Shown here in pieces: positions 1 to 61,625 of a stretch of DNA of 64,000 bases. The stretch's first letter is position 1, and each line of letters starts with the position of its first letter. The position numbers and the translations under genes were made by a program. This DNA comes from an uncultured Selenomonadaceae bacterium (GTDB taxonomy: Bacteria; Bacillota; Negativicutes; Selenomonadales; Selenomonadaceae): assembly GCA_902778455.1 (NCBI GenBank), contig CACYXR010000001.1:124001-188000 (forward strand), given 5' to 3'. The notes under the pieces were generated by a model. The model saw only the letters and a program-made list of their open reading frames with translations. It ran no database searches and had not been told where the DNA came from.

Positions 1-501
1 ATGCATAGAATATAGAATATTGGGAACATGATAAAAAGGCATCGTATCTGTCGAATCATATAATTCAACCAACTTTCCTCCATATCCGAAGGATTCCATT
101 CTACGTCTTGCGAGCGCTCTGTCTTTAAATCCCGCTAATATGATATACTTGGCTTCACTCAAAATAGCGTCATCTTCTGAAAAAACATGATAACTCCTAT
201 TTTCATGAGTTTGATCAACTACTATAGAACAATATGTTTCTCCGACAAATCCAATAAGTTTTTTTCTACACAAACATGTTAACCGCAACAAATATATAGC
301 ATTATCGACACCTGAACCAATATGCACTGCAATCGCCACATCATCTGGTAAATTATAAATCACGTCGCGAACCTTATTGATTCTAAAAGCTAAATCAAGT
401 TGTCTTTGCGAGGCTGGGAAAAAGGGTTTTATACGCGATGTCTTTCCTTCCAACCATAGGCGAATACCCTGCCGCTTGCTGTTATAGTGTTTTCCCCTCA
501 T
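1..501 (-). CDS. Partial protein with Rossmann-like module (N-terminal 167 aa)
   Basis: The reading frame is open from ATG at 501 to the window edge, so the 3' part is missing. The protein starts MRGKHYNSK and is not recognised as an enzyme family. From about residue 50 it reads like the sensor-type Rossmann module repeated in this island: a hydrophobic strand, a glycine turn (HIGSG), a second strand (KKLIGFVGE) and a later strand ending AKYIILAG. It lies 6 bp after the glycosyltransferase stop, so it is probably the next gene of the same operon. Its ribosome site is the GGGATGAT that overlaps the end of the upstream gene. What the missing C-terminal part does cannot be said. Confidence 0.6.
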   Translation of the reverse strand, partial: MRGKHYNSKRQGIRLWLEGKTSRIKPFFPASQRQLDLAFRINKVRDVIYNLPDDVAIAVHIGSGVDNAIYLLRLTCLCRKKLIGFVGETYCSIVVDQTHENRSYHVFSEDDAILSEAKYIILAGFKDRALARRRMESFGYGGKLVELYDSTDTMPFYHVPNILYSMH

Positions 502-55325: not shown

Positions 55326-57248
55326 CTAGCGTCCCGTCACTCTGTCCACAGGCAGCGCCAGATATTCGCCGCCGATATGAAGCATCAGATTCTCTTGCAC
55401 AAGATAGGCCAGCGCGTCTTCGATCTCTGCCGTCGTGAAATTATCCACAAGCTTTTCCACAAGGGCGTCTTCGCGTATCGCGTTCCGGGCGACGCGGATC
55501 AGTTCCGCTGCCGCGCCCGTCAGATGGCACAGCGGTTGACGGGCAATCAGCCGCGTGTCAAGGATCTTGATTTCCGTGCCTTTATCCTTCATCAGCAGCA
55601 GCTGCGGCTCGTCGTGCCACCTTTCGGTCAGTTCGTAGAGCCGTTCATAGGCGGGCCCCATCTGCCGGTAATCGTAGTAGCGGGCCAGTTCCGCTTCGTC
55701 CGTCGGCGCGAAAAGGTGCGCCGTCCGCCAAATGAAGTCCCCGTTCGGGAACACGAAATCATAGCCCTTGTCCGGCGCGAGTTCGGGCACGCCCTCACTC
55801 TTACTGTCCATATAGGCGTTGTAGCGCAGATACATGACGTGGGCGACGGTGTTCGGCGGCTCCAGGTGCATGATTTTCGGCAGAACGTCGTTCATTTCCG
55901 CCGTTTGTTCCTCTGTCTCCTCCGGCGTACCCACGAGGATATACCAGAGCAGCCGTATATCGTGGGCGCTGCAGTGCTTCATCATCTGCACCTGCCGGAT
56001 CGCCGATACGCCTTTTCCCATCAGCTTCAGGATTCCGTCGGAAAAGCTCTCGATGCCCGCCTGCACCCAGAAGAAGCCCGCCTCCGCCAGCCGCGCCAGA
56101 TCCGCCTCGGAGGCCGAGGATTTGATCTCGGTGAAGAGCCGAAGCCGGTTTTTTGCATACGCCGTCCGCTTCATCAGTTCATCGGGCAGTTCCTTTTGAT
56201 GGGCGAGGCTCAAGATGTTATCGGTGAAATAGCATTGGGCGCCCGGATAGGCCGCCGCCAAATCCGCCAGCTCGTCGGCGAAACGCGCGGCGGATTTTTC
56301 CCGGTAGACGTGGGCCGCGCTGCCGTTCAGCCCGCAGAAGCGGCAGGGACGTTTCGCCGCCCACCAGCAGCCCCGGGAACCTTCCGCCGTAACGATGAAT
56401 TGCCCCGCATGCATCGGCAGCAGCGCGTCCCGTTCTCGGAAGTAGTCGCTGAAATCCGGGAAAGGCAGGGCGTCGAGATTGACGGTAATTTTTGCCGGCG
56501 GCGCTTTTTTCTTCGTGCGGGAGACGACGCCGGGGGGAAGCTCTTCGTCGGGAATAATCCCTTCCCGTAAAAGCCGTTCGCAGATCGGCGCGAGGATTTC
56601 GTCCGCCTCGCCGGTGAAAACGTAGTCGAAGGCCTCGATATGTCCGCAAAGGGCGGCTCCGGCGTCGCCCTCGCAGTTCGCGCCGCCCGCGAGAATCAGC
56701 GGCGCGTCTTTTGTCCTTTTCAGCCGCCGCGCCAGCGCGATCATCGCGTTGTGCTGCTGGAACATCGAGAGGAACGCGACGATTTTCGCGCCGCTGGCTT
56801 TGACGCGGGCGACGGCCTCGTCGAGATACGCCTCCGCCATATCGTGGGCTTCCCGGAACAGCGCGAGGGTTTCCAGGGTGTCACGCCGCTGCTCCCCCGC
56901 GAAGACCTTGCCCGGCAGGTGCGTTTCCGTCATCCATCGGATATACTCGTCAAAGGAGCGAAGCGTCTTTCCGTGCGCCGCTTCGGCGAAAATCGTTTCG
57001 CAGGCGAAATAGTCGTGGCCGTAGCCGATCGTGCAGACCTGCAGGATGCGCCGGTACTTCTCCAGACCGATGCGGTTCGCGAAATAAAGGTACTCGTGCT
57101 GCACGCGGCCCGTGATTCCCTCTTCGCGGAGGATCGACTTGAAAAGGGAGAACGTCAGGCACGGCATATATTCGTCGCAGAAAGGCATGGAGACGAGCAG
57201 CATATCCACGGGCGACAGTTTTTCGCCGCTTTTCCCGTTTTCCGTCAT
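55326..57248 (-). CDS. RiPP-maturation radical SAM enzyme (B12-type, CX7CX2C)
   Basis: A 640-aa protein of the family called RiPP maturation radical SAM protein 1. An N-terminal cobalamin-binding-like domain (DMLLVSMPFCDEYMPCLTF, LILAGGANCEGDAG, YVFTGEADEILAPI) is followed by the radical SAM motif GCWWAAKRPCRFCGLNG (C294, C302, C305), the atypical spacing of this family. FWVQAGIESFSDGILKLMGK follows. Relatives act on Nif11-leader precursors, some as C-methyltransferases. It sits 49 bp downstream of a precursor gene. AGGAG lies before ATG 57248. Confidence 0.88.
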   Translation of the reverse strand: MTENGKSGEKLSPVDMLLVSMPFCDEYMPCLTFSLFKSILREEGITGRVQHEYLYFANRIGLEKYRRILQVCTIGYGHDYFACETIFAEAAHGKTLRSFDEYIRWMTETHLPGKVFAGEQRRDTLETLALFREAHDMAEAYLDEAVARVKASGAKIVAFLSMFQQHNAMIALARRLKRTKDAPLILAGGANCEGDAGAALCGHIEAFDYVFTGEADEILAPICERLLREGIIPDEELPPGVVSRTKKKAPPAKITVNLDALPFPDFSDYFRERDALLPMHAGQFIVTAEGSRGCWWAAKRPCRFCGLNGSAAHVYREKSAARFADELADLAAAYPGAQCYFTDNILSLAHQKELPDELMKRTAYAKNRLRLFTEIKSSASEADLARLAEAGFFWVQAGIESFSDGILKLMGKGVSAIRQVQMMKHCSAHDIRLLWYILVGTPEETEEQTAEMNDVLPKIMHLEPPNTVAHVMYLRYNAYMDSKSEGVPELAPDKGYDFVFPNGDFIWRTAHLFAPTDEAELARYYDYRQMGPAYERLYELTERWHDEPQLLLMKDKGTEIKILDTRLIARQPLCHLTGAAAELIRVARNAIREDALVEKLVDNFTTAEIEDALAYLVQENLMLHIGGEYLALPVDRVTGR

Positions 57249-57297: not shown

Positions 57298-57558
57298 TTA
57301 GCAGTCCTTCAGCGTGCCGCATTTGAAAGCGCAGCCATCCACCATGTAGCAGGTGTTGAAGCCGCCCGCCACTGCCTTCATCGCCTCGTCGTCCAGCTGG
57401 AAGTCGTCGATCTCGGCCATGTACGCCTCAGCCTCTTCCCGCGTCATCTCGTAGTCCCGGCTCTTCGCCAGCGCGAGAAGCTCGTCGGCGTCCTTGCACT
57501 TCAGCGCCTGCTGCACCATTTCCTTCGTCAGTTCTTCCCGTTTCAGCTGCTTTGCCAT
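57298..57558 (-). CDS. Nif11-type RiPP precursor with four-Cys core
   Basis: An 86-aa precursor. Residues 1-66 are a Nif11-like leader (LTKEMVQQALKCKDADELLA, later QLDDEAMKAVAGG) ending in the double-Gly cleavage site at 65-66. The core is FNTCYMVDGCAFKCGTLKDC with four cysteines. The ribosome site AAGGAGGTGAT is near perfect, which fits high expression. It lies between the two radical SAM genes. The core shares the CY-x-x-x-x-C pattern with the other precursors. Confidence 0.9.
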   Translation of the reverse strand: MAKQLKREELTKEMVQQALKCKDADELLALAKSRDYEMTREEAEAYMAEIDDFQLDDEAMKAVAGGFNTCYMVDGCAFKCGTLKDC

Positions 57559-57572
57559 CGGATATCACCTCC

Positions 57573-59240
57573 TTATCCTTGCTTTTCCTCTTCCTTCTCT
57601 TCCGAGAAGAAAATTCCCGCTTCTTTGATGATATCGAACATTTCCTTCTGGCTCGTGGACGTCATCAGCGTCTCGCGCTCCTTTTCCGTGAGCCGGGAGA
57701 CCGGCCCCGCCAGCGAGACGGAAAACTCCGACGCGCAGGATGCGCTAGTGCGGGCGCAGGAGCGTGATGCGACGTTTGCGTCCGCCTTTGTCTCTTCCCA
57801 CTTCTTCCCGACGACGCGGGGGGCGACGAAGGCGAAAATCTCCTTCGACTCGCCGCAGTTCTCGCGGAAGTAGCTGCCGTGGTTTCGATGCGCCTCCGGT
57901 GCGCAGCCGCCTCGGCAGATGAAGATGTACGGACAGGTCTGGCAGGGCTTCATCAGGTCCGCGGTGCGGGTGCGCCATTTCGCTTTCGAGAAGTTGAAGA
58001 AGAAGCGGCCCGCTTCCTCATCGGTGAAGCCCACGGCTTCCTCTTCCATCGCAACGAGGTCCCAGCAGGAATAGAGGAGCCCGTCGGGGGCGATGCAGAG
58101 CATTCCCTGCTCCGCGCCGCAGAAGGACGGCGCGAAGCTCGGATAGTCCTCCTGCTTCATGGCGGCGGTAAGGCCCTGCATGGGCATCGAATACTGGCTC
58201 TGCTTCCTGATGGCCTCCAGCGGCGGAATGCCCGCCGCAAGGATCGCGTCCATCACCTGCCGCTCCGTCACCTTCGTCGGCGAGTCGGCGGGCTCCGAAA
58301 CCGCCTTGAAGTAATAGGAGAACAAGCCTTTGCGCTTCGGTTTCGGCTTTCCGGCCTTCTTCGCCTCCTGCGCTTCCTTATACGCTTTTTCCCGTTCTTC
58401 CGGCGTGGCTTCCCGAAGTCCCCGGGCCGCTATATCGTCGATCAGCGCCTTGACGCCGCCGATATTATCCCCGTTCGTGTTCACCCGCAGGCTGATGTCG
58501 ACGCCGTGGTCGAGGGCAAGCTTCACGTTCTGCAGGATCTTGTCGTAGGTCGGCACGCCGTCGCGGTGCAGACGGCGGCAATCGTTGAGCGCGCCCACGC
58601 CGTCCACCGTGACCTGCAGCTGGGAGACCTCAAACTCTTCCAACAGGTCGATATAGGCGTCGAGGTCGTAGCCGTTGGTGATGCCGGAAAGGTCGAGGCC
58701 CATCGCTTTCGCGTGCTCGCAGATATTCCTGACCGTGTCTTTGTTTTCCTTCAAAAGCGGCTCGCCGCCGTAGAGCGAGACGTTGCCGATCTTATGGCCT
58801 TTGTCCCTCTGCTTTTGGAGCGCGGCGAAAACCGCCTCCACCATTTCCGGCTTCATCTCATGGCCGAGCCACTCCTGGCCGCGGGTCAGCCGATGCCGCT
58901 CGAAGCAGTACGGGCAGCGGAAGTTGCAGTTGTAAGTAGGCAGGATGACCGGTCCGGTGCCCGCGTGGCCCACCAGCTTGTTCCAGACGCGGCCGAGAAG
59001 TTTTGCGTCGGCCAGCTCGCCCTCCTCGTCCTTCCGCGTGATATGGCCGCGCACCATCAGCCGCTCCCGCAGCGCGAAGGGCAGCTTCACCAATTCGCCT
59101 TCGCGAAAGATTGCCGCCACCGATTCGTCCACTACGTCTATCGCGCCATAGAGGCCGTTGACGAGCAGCGCCTTTCCGGGGATTTCCTTGTCGTCTGTGC
59201 CGATCAGCGGCAGGATGATTTCGTAAGTACTGACTCTCAC
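57573..59240 (-). CDS. SPASM-domain radical SAM peptide maturase
   Basis: A 555-aa peptide-modifying radical SAM enzyme. The cluster motif is NCNFRCPYCFE (C105, C109, C112), then VSLYGGEPLLKEN. SPASM cysteines appear in SFCGAEQGMLC, LYSCWDLV, CQTCPYIFICRGGC and ENC. A charged insert (EATPEEREKAYKEAQEAKKA) and a Ser/Cys-rich tail are unusual. GTG 59240 is chosen because GGAGG lies 7 nt upstream. SPASM maturases often make thioether crosslinks on Cys-containing cores; that reaction is inferred here. Confidence 0.85.
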   Translation of the reverse strand: MRVSTYEIILPLIGTDDKEIPGKALLVNGLYGAIDVVDESVAAIFREGELVKLPFALRERLMVRGHITRKDEEGELADAKLLGRVWNKLVGHAGTGPVILPTYNCNFRCPYCFERHRLTRGQEWLGHEMKPEMVEAVFAALQKQRDKGHKIGNVSLYGGEPLLKENKDTVRNICEHAKAMGLDLSGITNGYDLDAYIDLLEEFEVSQLQVTVDGVGALNDCRRLHRDGVPTYDKILQNVKLALDHGVDISLRVNTNGDNIGGVKALIDDIAARGLREATPEEREKAYKEAQEAKKAGKPKPKRKGLFSYYFKAVSEPADSPTKVTERQVMDAILAAGIPPLEAIRKQSQYSMPMQGLTAAMKQEDYPSFAPSFCGAEQGMLCIAPDGLLYSCWDLVAMEEEAVGFTDEEAGRFFFNFSKAKWRTRTADLMKPCQTCPYIFICRGGCAPEAHRNHGSYFRENCGESKEIFAFVAPRVVGKKWEETKADANVASRSCARTSASCASEFSVSLAGPVSRLTEKERETLMTSTSQKEMFDIIKEAGIFFSEEKEEEKQG

Positions 59241-59333: not shown

Positions 59334-59560
59334 TTATTTCCAGTCGTCGCCGATGTAACCGCAGTTATGCCGCATATAGCATTCGAAAATGCCGCCCGCC
59401 GCATTCTCCAGCATCGCGTTGTCCAGCTCGAAGTCCGCCAGCTCGGCGAGGTACGCCTCGGCTTCTGCCTTCGTCATCTAGTAGCCCTCGGCCTCCGCCA
59501 GATTCAAGAGGTCATCGGCGGTCTTGCACTTCAGCGCCTTTTGCACCATTTCCTTGCCAT
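59334..59560 (-). pseudogene. Nif11-type precursor broken by a frameshift and an amber codon
   Basis: A good ribosome site (GGAGG) and ATG 59560 lead into a leader that has lost its first ~10 residues by a small deletion and frameshift. The leader then continues GKEMVQKALKCKTADDLLNL, is stopped by TAG at 59480-59478 (between Tyr and Met of GY-MTKAEAEAY), and resumes to AAGG. The core is IFECYMRHNCGYIGDDWK. Core and leader second half are otherwise well kept, so decay is recent. The Met right after the TAG has no ribosome site of its own. Confidence 0.75.
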
Positions 59561-59610: not shown

Positions 59611-59844
59611 TCACATGGGGCCGTCCAGGGGGCATTCCGTGTAGCAACTGCCGCCAGCCACATTGGAAAGCGCCGCGTCGTCCAGCTCAAAGTCGTGTAT
59701 CTCCGCCATGTACGCTTCCGCCTCGTCCTTCGTCATGTCGTAGCCCTCGGTCTTCGCCGTCGCCATCAGCTCCTCGGCGGTCTTGCACTGCATTGCTCTG
59801 GCAATCATTTCTTTCGTGAGTCCGTTCCTGTTGATCTTTTTCAT
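59611..59844 (-). CDS. Nif11-type RiPP precursor with short two-Cys core
   Basis: A 77-aa precursor. The leader (residues 1-65) is nearly the same as that of the Hint-fused precursor: MKKINRNGLTKEMIARAMQC, then FELDDAALSNVAGG. The core after GG is SCYTECPLDGPM. AAGGAGG precedes the ATG. A 54-bp upstream element is shared with the small peptide gene at 62980. It is probably a substrate of the two downstream radical SAM enzymes. Confidence 0.88.
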   Translation of the reverse strand: MKKINRNGLTKEMIARAMQCKTAEELMATAKTEGYDMTKDEAEAYMAEIHDFELDDAALSNVAGGSCYTECPLDGPM

Positions 59845-59969: not shown

Positions 59970-60674
59970 TCACGCCACAGTTTTCCCTTGCAGTCCCTCG
60001 CTCCGTTCCCCTTTCGTGAAATAGCCCTCGGCGGCGACGCCCGCCACAAAGATGACGTCCTCGTCCTCTTCCTCCCCGATCAGCACATCATAGACGGGCT
60101 CGAAGGTGCCGGTAGGCTTTACGCTCGTCACGGTCGCCGTCGCGCCGCCCCGTTTCAACACCGTTTTTCCGAGGGCCTCTTTCACGGCGCAGTTCTTCTC
60201 GTGCCCAAAGTAGAGCGTCTGGCTTTCCGTCGTGCGCCAAACGGTTCCGTCGGAGAAGGCGACCTCGAAAATCTCCTCCGCCTGCGGCGTCATCACCTCC
60301 GTGACTGTGCCGACGATCTCATTTCCTTCCGCGTCCAGCGTAATCACTTTGTCGCCGACCTGCAAATCCTTGATGAGCTTTATGCCGCCCGGCACAGCCA
60401 CCTCGGAATCGCCCGTGAAGCAATGGGGGTGGGCAGGATTACATTCGTTGCCGTCGCACGTCATATTGGTATAGCAGGATCCCCCTGCCGCGCGCTCAAG
60501 CACTTCCTCCTCCAGCTCGAAGTCCGCCAGTTCCGCGATATACGCCTCCGCCTCGTCCCTCGTCATCTCGTAGCCCTCGGTTTCCGCCAGCTCCAAGAGT
60601 TTGTCGGCGGTCTTGCACTGCATTGCCTTCTCGATCATTTCCTTCGTGAGTCCGTTCTTGTTGATTTTTGTCAT
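59970..60674 (-). CDS. RiPP precursor with leader, core and C-terminal Hint domain
   Basis: A 234-aa fusion. Residues 1-65 are a Nif11-type leader ending RAAGG. Residues 66-84 are a core-like segment (SCYTNMTCDGNECNPAHPH) close to the neighbouring precursor core SCYTECPLDG. From Cys85 a Hint domain begins: CFTGDSEVAVPG, IKDLQVGDKVITLD, DGTVWRTTESQTLYF and VYDVLIGEEE. The block B position expected to be His is Gln (TESQ), and no terminal His-Asn is seen. Cys85 could form a thioester at the core C-terminus. The gene starts 21 bp after the phytase stop with AAAGGCGG upstream. Confidence 0.85.
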   Translation of the reverse strand: MTKINKNGLTKEMIEKAMQCKTADKLLELAETEGYEMTRDEAEAYIAELADFELEEEVLERAAGGSCYTNMTCDGNECNPAHPHCFTGDSEVAVPGGIKLIKDLQVGDKVITLDAEGNEIVGTVTEVMTPQAEEIFEVAFSDGTVWRTTESQTLYFGHEKNCAVKEALGKTVLKRGGATATVTSVKPTGTFEPVYDVLIGEEEDEDVIFVAGVAAEGYFTKGERSEGLQGKTVA

Positions 60675-60695: not shown

Positions 60696-61625
60696 TTATG
60701 CCGCTTCGGCTTCTTCTATCCATTCGCCCCATCGGAGCGTCGTTTCTCCCGCGTGCCTTGCCCGGACATATTCCGAAAATAGTTTCAACGTCTCCAGCCG
60801 CTGGACAATCCGCTCATTTTTCCACTCCTCGTCTTTCATGGCCGTTAGATCGGCGCCGCCGATCAGGTGCTGGCGCTCGATGATAGTCTCCGCGGGAATT
60901 CCCGGGTTGCGGATCATATCGTACATCGCCATGAACGTCGTCGTACGTCCGTGTCCGGCACGGCAGTGGAAATGGAGCCAGGCATCCCTGGGAAGCGAAT
61001 CGACAAAATCGAGAAACGCTTCGATCGTCTCCGTATCCGGCTGGGTCCTGTCCGTCACATAAAACCGCACATACCGGAACCCGATAGCTTCGACGACTTC
61101 TTTTTCCGTCTGCACATTCTGCGGGGCGAAGGTGACGGCTTCGACGCGGCCTTTGTCGGTCTTGCCCTTCGGCACAAAGGTCGTCGTAACCCCTGCGAGC
61201 TCGGCAAGACGTTCTTCCTCGTCCAGCGCGACTTCCTCCGGGGTCTTCCCTTCGTTGGCCAGATTGTTCTTCTTGTGCCAGCTCACGGGCAGCCCGTCCG
61301 CAAAACCGTGGGACTCCTGCCGCAGGTCCACATCGTAGATGGGCGCGCCGGGGGCGGCCGCCGCGGAAAGCTTTGTATACAGCGAGGCGAAGCCGGCGGC
61401 TGTGCACTGGGCGCTGCCCGATATGCGGAGATTGTCCAGTCCTTCGCGGGTGGGCGGCTCATCCTCCGGCGCCACGTGCCAGTCGTCGGAAGCCATGCGG
61501 AAATTGCGCGGCTCCGCAAGCTCCGGGTCTTCATCGAGCCGCCATTTCGCTTCCGAAACCGAAGCGGCAGTCAGCAGCAAAAGAGAAATCAAGAGGATCG
61601 TGGTCTTTTTCAGCAGGTTGCGCAT
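60696..61625 (-). CDS. Secreted cysteine phytase (PTP-like inositol polyphosphatase)
   Basis: A 309-aa exported enzyme: signal peptide LLKKTTILLISLLLLTAASV, then a protein-tyrosine-phosphatase-like fold. The P-loop is HFHCRAGHGRTT with nucleophile Cys221 and Arg227, and the general-acid loop is YVTDRTQPD (D192). This matches the Selenomonas/Mitsuokella PhyA group, which dephosphorylates inositol hexakisphosphate. The ATG is preceded by AGGAAAGGATC. It lies between a phosphoesterase gene and the leader-Hint precursor and may be co-transcribed with the latter. Confidence 0.88.
   Translation of the reverse strand: MRNLLKKTTILLISLLLLTAASVSEAKWRLDEDPELAEPRNFRMASDDWHVAPEDEPPTREGLDNLRISGSAQCTAAGFASLYTKLSAAAAPGAPIYDVDLRQESHGFADGLPVSWHKKNNLANEGKTPEEVALDEEERLAELAGVTTTFVPKGKTDKGRVEAVTFAPQNVQTEKEVVEAIGFRYVRFYVTDRTQPDTETIEAFLDFVDSLPRDAWLHFHCRAGHGRTTTFMAMYDMIRNPGIPAETIIERQHLIGGADLTAMKDEEWKNERIVQRLETLKLFSEYVRARHAGETTLRWGEWIEEAEAA

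Follow-up and report, generated by a model that had tools for sequence, protein, structure and literature searches.

The precursor gene and its neighbours

On the minus strand of the window (the whole 64,000-nucleotide stretch of rumen bacterial DNA analysed here), positions 60674 to 59970 form a single intact frame of 234 aa. In this frame, a Nif11-type leader is followed by a short Cys core and then by a Hint domain. The features of the frame and of the genes around it are the following.

60674 to 59970, minus strand: Nif11-Hint frame, 234 aa; ATG at 60674, stop at 59970-59972
60480..60674, minus strand: Nif11-type leader, residues 1-65, ending ERAAGG (TIGR03798 and Pfam Nif11, both below cut-off)
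60423..60479, minus strand: core, residues 66-84, SCYTNMTCDGNECNPAHPH, 19 aa, low model confidence
59973..60422, minus strand: residues 85-234, made up of the Hint domain (fold 85-219) and a brief tail (Pfam Hint, Hint_2, AF2, Foldseek, VIA)
60420..60422, minus strand: Cys85 codon; counterpart of residue 1 in inteins and of Cys258 in hedgehog
60219..60230, minus strand: block B, Thr149-x-x-Gln152, where inteins have His (alignments)
60087..60089, minus strand: Asp196 codon, in an F-block-like VYDV; Y and D invariant in alignment A1
60024..60029, minus strand: Glu216-Gly217, at the place of the intein His-Asn end (alignments)
59611..59844, minus strand: Nif11 precursor without Hint, core SCYTECPLDGPM (frame and leader model)
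59361..59558 (G000:C1:183361-183558), minus strand: Nif11 precursor broken by an in-frame TAG
57573..59240, minus strand: radical SAM/SPASM peptide maturase (Radical_SAM 9.6e-20; SPASM 51.1 bits, cut-off 27)
57298..57558, minus strand: Nif11 precursor without Hint, core FNTCYMVDGCAFKCGTLKDC (frame and leader model)
55326..57248, minus strand: RiPP maturation B12-radical SAM C-methyltransferase (TIGR03975 460.6 bits, cut-off 281.85)
60696-61625, minus strand: PTP-like phytase, directly upstream of the Hint precursor (Pfam 97.7 bits)

An earlier, sequence-only reading of this DNA had described one frame composed of a Nif11-type leader with GG at residues 64-65, a Cys core of 19 residues, and a Hint domain that begins with Cys85 right behind the core; this description is confirmed. 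The GG lies at the leader end, and the frame translation places Cys85 immediately C-terminal to core residue 84, with no spacer. The leader models match the window protein below their cut-offs (TIGR03798, E 1.7e-6, 28.2 bits against 32.3; Pfam Nif11, E 0.0018, 19 bits against 23.8). The profile search of the Hint part gave scores above the cut-offs of both Pfam models (PF01079 Hint, E 1.3e-7, 31.9 bits against 29.7; Hint_2, 28.8 bits against 28.4). After the Hint fold, about 15 residues remain before the frame ends. The core, at 19 aa, falls within the range of Nif11 cores that lack a Hint (10-30 aa, median 17). It had also been proposed that the start of the core is nearly identical to that of the neighbouring precursor. 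The two do share an initial SCYT, but the common run consists of these four residues only, and C-[YW] within the first six residues is widespread, occurring in 29 of 51 Hint-less cores of the window's and related genomes.

Among peptide maturase models, the radical SAM/SPASM gene is matched best by CefB, of the ranthipeptide / Cys-every-fifth type, but below its cut-off (1.3e-36, 126 of 600 bits); PapB gives 85 of 340 bits. The order metallophosphoesterase, PTP-like phytase, Nif11-Hint, Nif11 precursor(s), radical SAM/SPASM, DdpX is kept in two related loci (L022, L025/L075), and the radical SAM/SPASM gene is retained near Nif11-Hint in L022, L023, and L025. Counterparts of the TAG-broken precursor are intact in L022 and L025. 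The phytase, which precedes Nif11-Hint in L024 and L076 too, adjoins the Hint precursor upstream in several genomes, yet has no obvious RiPP link. Elsewhere in the window's own genome (L125, G000:C11), tandem Nif11 precursors have similar leaders and differing cores.

The window's own genome also encodes an NHLM pair over cut-off (TIGR03796, 956 bits; TIGR03797, 731 bits), and the NHLM exporter with its C39 protease lies 8 kb from the Nif11-Hint gene, past the window end. In four genomes (G000, G124, G129, G132), exporter and Nif11-Hint gene share a contig, some 5-11 kb apart. Within the family, TIGR03796 is over cut-off in all 16 genomes with Nif11-Hint, compared with 86 of the 173 remaining ones (Fisher p 3e-5, kinship ignored); it is missing over cut-off from G143, a genome with the adhesin form only, and from G244.

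The Hint fold and its active site

Hint domains of this kind can break or re-join the bond that precedes them, and the Hint of hedgehog joins its signal to cholesterol. Structure prediction for the window protein returned the Hint fold rather than another one: AlphaFold2, given an input alignment of seven sequences, yielded a model in which most of residues 85-219 have pLDDT values of ~70-93 and most core residues values of ~28-33. Foldseek matches for this model include a Tetrahymena BIL domain (3e-9), the gp41-1 and DnaB inteins, and hedgehog. VIA-align gave Z scores of 21.3 for the DnaB mini-intein, 20.5 for BIL 6y75, 19.4 for the Clostridium BIL 2lwy, and 17.6 for hedgehog, pairing residues 85..217 with 1..440 of 2in0 and 85..219 with 258..402 of 1at0. 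In addition, a profile of the Hint family matches the BIL structure 2lwy at 1.9e-9.

Across the 12 Hints of alignment A1 (A1 numbering), Cys1, Gly23-Asp24, Thr65, and Tyr111-Asp112 are invariant. The equivalent of Cys85 is conserved in every homologue that reaches this position with one exception, L061, and the Nif11 members have a leader and then a core-like stretch upstream of it. In L061, which comes from a single-contig complete genome (G146), a one-base change has turned Cys1 into Tyr (TAC), and the rest of the Hint precursor is well kept.

The alignments also uphold the earlier statements that the block B His is replaced by Gln (Q152) and that the terminal His-Asn is absent, with E216-G217 in its place. 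In a profile alignment, the block B Gln stands opposite the His of the 2lwy BIL domain. Both the T and the Q of this block are invariant across the 12-row Hint alignment, and a distant phage member (L102/L103) carries Glu at the position of the Gln. As judged from these alignments, the Gln is a trait of the Hint clade, phage members included, and not a local decay; since it is clade-wide, the domain may react differently, slowly, or not at all. Given the block B Gln and the lack of a terminal His-Asn, splicing is not expected, as had been anticipated.

The block B His has been called the single most conserved intein residue (PMC6333167). Nevertheless, the Tko CDC21-1 intein naturally lacks it and still works, and when the M86 DnaB intein carries His73Ala, bulky -1 residues restore the N-S shift (PMC6333167, PMC7765530). 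Residue -1 of the window protein is His; among 15 Nif11-Hint rows, 11 have His, Lys, or Arg there.

Recurrence and origin of the fusion

The search for further fusions of leader, GG, short core, and Hint found this layout in 16 more Negativicutes genomes, with about 12 copies intact; chance or assembly error is thereby excluded. The resulting count of 17 genomes, the window's included, takes in G103 (L064) on its Hint alone. A Hint of the window type is present in 22 of 189 family genomes and in 43 of 380 class genomes, the latter at a profile threshold of 1e-4 at which the weakest matches are other Hints or inteins. The layout was not seen in a thin sample of 398 genomes of the phylum from outside Negativicutes, and in its full form it is absent from annotated phage or plasmid records.

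The layout falls into two sets whose cores are unrelated. Set one is found in the window's genus, in a second genus, and in G244, whose placement in another family is uncertain because of 6% contamination in that genome. Its cores are 19-27 aa long and follow the pattern C-[YW]...C-D-x-N-[EQ]-x-N-[PA]-A-H. In one member (L053), the open frame begins near the leader end, and the remaining leader lies beyond a stop (tblastn, longer stretch L076). Set two consists of L056-L062 plus the Hint part of a broken copy, L064; it has Nif11-like leaders and cores of about 15-65 aa, several of which look amphipathic. In this set, the in-frame leader of L057 is incomplete and that of L062 ends in AAG-K where GG is expected, while L058 and L070 (the L059 gene) pass the Pfam cut-offs for both Nif11 (27.7 and 28.9 against 23.8) and Hint_2 within one frame. 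No radical SAM maturase is evident adjacent to set two in the loci read. A GNAT acetyltransferase occurs shortly after set-two Hint precursors (L079:1027-1950, L073:10236-11147), and it is possible that it serves in modification or self-protection. A short frame in another genome (L068, G135:C31:19696-19836) joins the first Nif11 leader residues to the last third of a Hint and is apparently a deletion remnant.

In the other close members, the Hint sits at the C-terminal end, or close to it, of either a phage structural-like protein or a filamentous adhesin. Thus, Hints that mostly have T-x-x-Q at block B end phage structural-like proteins across Negativicutes (L063, L096, L098-L107, L114), and a Hint of 68% identity forms the end of a filamentous adhesin of 5152 aa encoded on a plasmid of Selenomonas ruminantium TAM6421 (L054, NC_017078.1:110740-111162). 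The adhesin gene of S. ruminantium ATCC 12561 (L026) is followed by no more than a Hint remnant with a broken frame.

In the Hint tree, every Nif11-Hint and the adhesin fall into one clade (99/97) nested within phage Hints, with the adhesin Hint inside set one (99/88); long branches leave the deeper order unsure. The simplest reading of this tree, with the caution that long branches impose, is that the Hint probably derives from a C-terminal domain of phage structural proteins. Repeated independent capture of Hints by Nif11 leaders is unsupported, since all the Nif11-Hint rows and the adhesin form one clade. The Hint is under purifying selection: no pair with the window sequence exceeds a dN/dS of 0.29, and where dS is about 1 the ratio is 0.09-0.19. 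These values, together with the clade-wide block B Gln, rule out recent decay of the domain.

Classification, proposed processing, and alternatives

The window precursor is best classed with the Nif11 RiPP precursors. It resembles those with a Nif11-like leader (TIGR03798) in its leader, although this scores below the model cut-off, and in its GG, its Cys core, and its neighbouring radical SAM/SPASM and B12-radical SAM genes, as well as in the TIGR03796/TIGR03797 exporters of its genome; it differs in that a 150-aa Hint follows the core where theirs have a stop codon. By the tests applied, it is not an intein, a Hog domain, or a pretoxin HINT. With inteins and BIL domains, it has the fold and blocks A and F in common, but it is without the His-Asn end, the C-terminal flank, and the block B His, and intein splicing is ruled out by the absence of the first two. 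Like hedgehog, it carries its Hint fold C-terminally, has Cys1 at its only junction, the N-terminal one, and lacks a terminal His-Asn. Unlike hedgehog, it has Gln for the block B His, its cargo is a RiPP core, and the roughly 15 residues behind its fold hold no sterol-recognition region, which rules out a Hog domain. The PT-HINT of polymorphic toxins is likewise a Hint in an exported protein (PMC3482391), and a close relative of the window Hint also ends a filamentous adhesin; however, PT-HINT stands just before a C-terminal toxin, whereas here the cargo is upstream and nothing follows. A pretoxin HINT is ruled out by this lack of a downstream toxin and by a PT-HINT model score of 18.1 of 27.7 bits. 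Each half of the precursor, Nif11 and Hint, is already known, but the literature library searched yielded neither their combination nor a RiPP precursor with an intrinsic thioester-forming domain, which is weak evidence given that subscription journals lie mostly outside that library. The word Nif11 is absent from a comprehensive survey of polymorphic toxins that covers HINT at length (PMC3482391).

The favoured reading, to which a probability of about one half is given, is that the frame encodes a RiPP precursor with built-in C-terminal processing and that its Hint is active, perhaps slowly or upon a trigger. Sequence and models show the layout, the fold, the conserved Cys/Thr/Asp site, the recurrence, the purifying selection, and the maturases and exporter nearby; we infer the following course. 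The leader would be recognised by the adjacent radical SAM maturase(s), leading to modification of the Cys core, and the C39 protease of the NHLM exporter would cut behind the GG. Through Cys85, the Hint would then convert the bond between residues 84 and 85 to a thioester, which could be attacked by water, a small thiol, an amine, a hydroxyl, or one of the core's own nucleophiles. The core would thus be freed, conjugated, or cyclised, and the Hint would stay behind. Since nothing lies C-terminal to the Hint in any Nif11 or adhesin member, only the bond between the core and Cys85 can be its substrate; splicing is consequently impossible, and a C-terminal reaction would have no purpose. An active Hint is favoured because the block B His is replaceable in the literature and because residue -1 is His here. 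Counted against it are, from the sequence comparisons, the apparent replacement of this His throughout the clade, the Tyr at Cys1 in the complete genome of L061, and the seeming lack of an adjacent radical SAM maturase in the set-two loci, and, in addition, the possibility that a 150-residue Hint may not pass the NHLM exporter.

The first two of these objections suit another explanation, in which the Hint is catalytically dead and acts as a folded cap or carrier that keeps the core inactive, shields its C-terminus, or aids the maturase or exporter, and is then removed by an ordinary protease or retained. Purifying selection would fit any such folded function. However, a cap would need neither the active-site Cys1, Thr, and Asp, which apart from Cys1 in L061 are invariant over the phage, adhesin, and precursor members, nor a Hint that starts exactly at the core end, and this explanation appears rather unlikely. 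Less probable still, and drawn by analogy with hedgehog and cholesterol, is that the Hint attaches the core to some partner molecule or to a surface, which it may likewise do in the adhesin and the phage structural-like proteins. The presence of the same Hint at or near the C-terminus of those proteins would agree with attachment, but the short tail provides no acceptor-recognition region and there is no known acceptor. Finally, the sub-cut-off leader scores, the restriction of N-[PA]-A-H to Hint-fused members, and the maturase-poor surroundings of set two could mean that a Nif11-like domain and a Hint make up an unrelated small protein with the "core" as linker, but this is improbable given the maturases, the exporter, a core start common to the neighbouring precursor, and the nearby Hint-less paralogues, whose leader and GG are the same.

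Tentatively, and at somewhat less than even odds, the precursors may represent a RiPP class that carries its own phage-borrowed C-terminal Hint, with Gln for the block B His, and that gives rise to cyclic, thiolactone, or conjugated peptides. Such a class would need no dedicated cyclase or C-terminal protease. An active Hint would also make this a natural, genetically encoded peptide-thioester system, useful for producing peptides that are cyclic or conjugated. A Hint clade able to work with a block B Gln would put to the test current ideas about the activation of the scissile bond by inteins.
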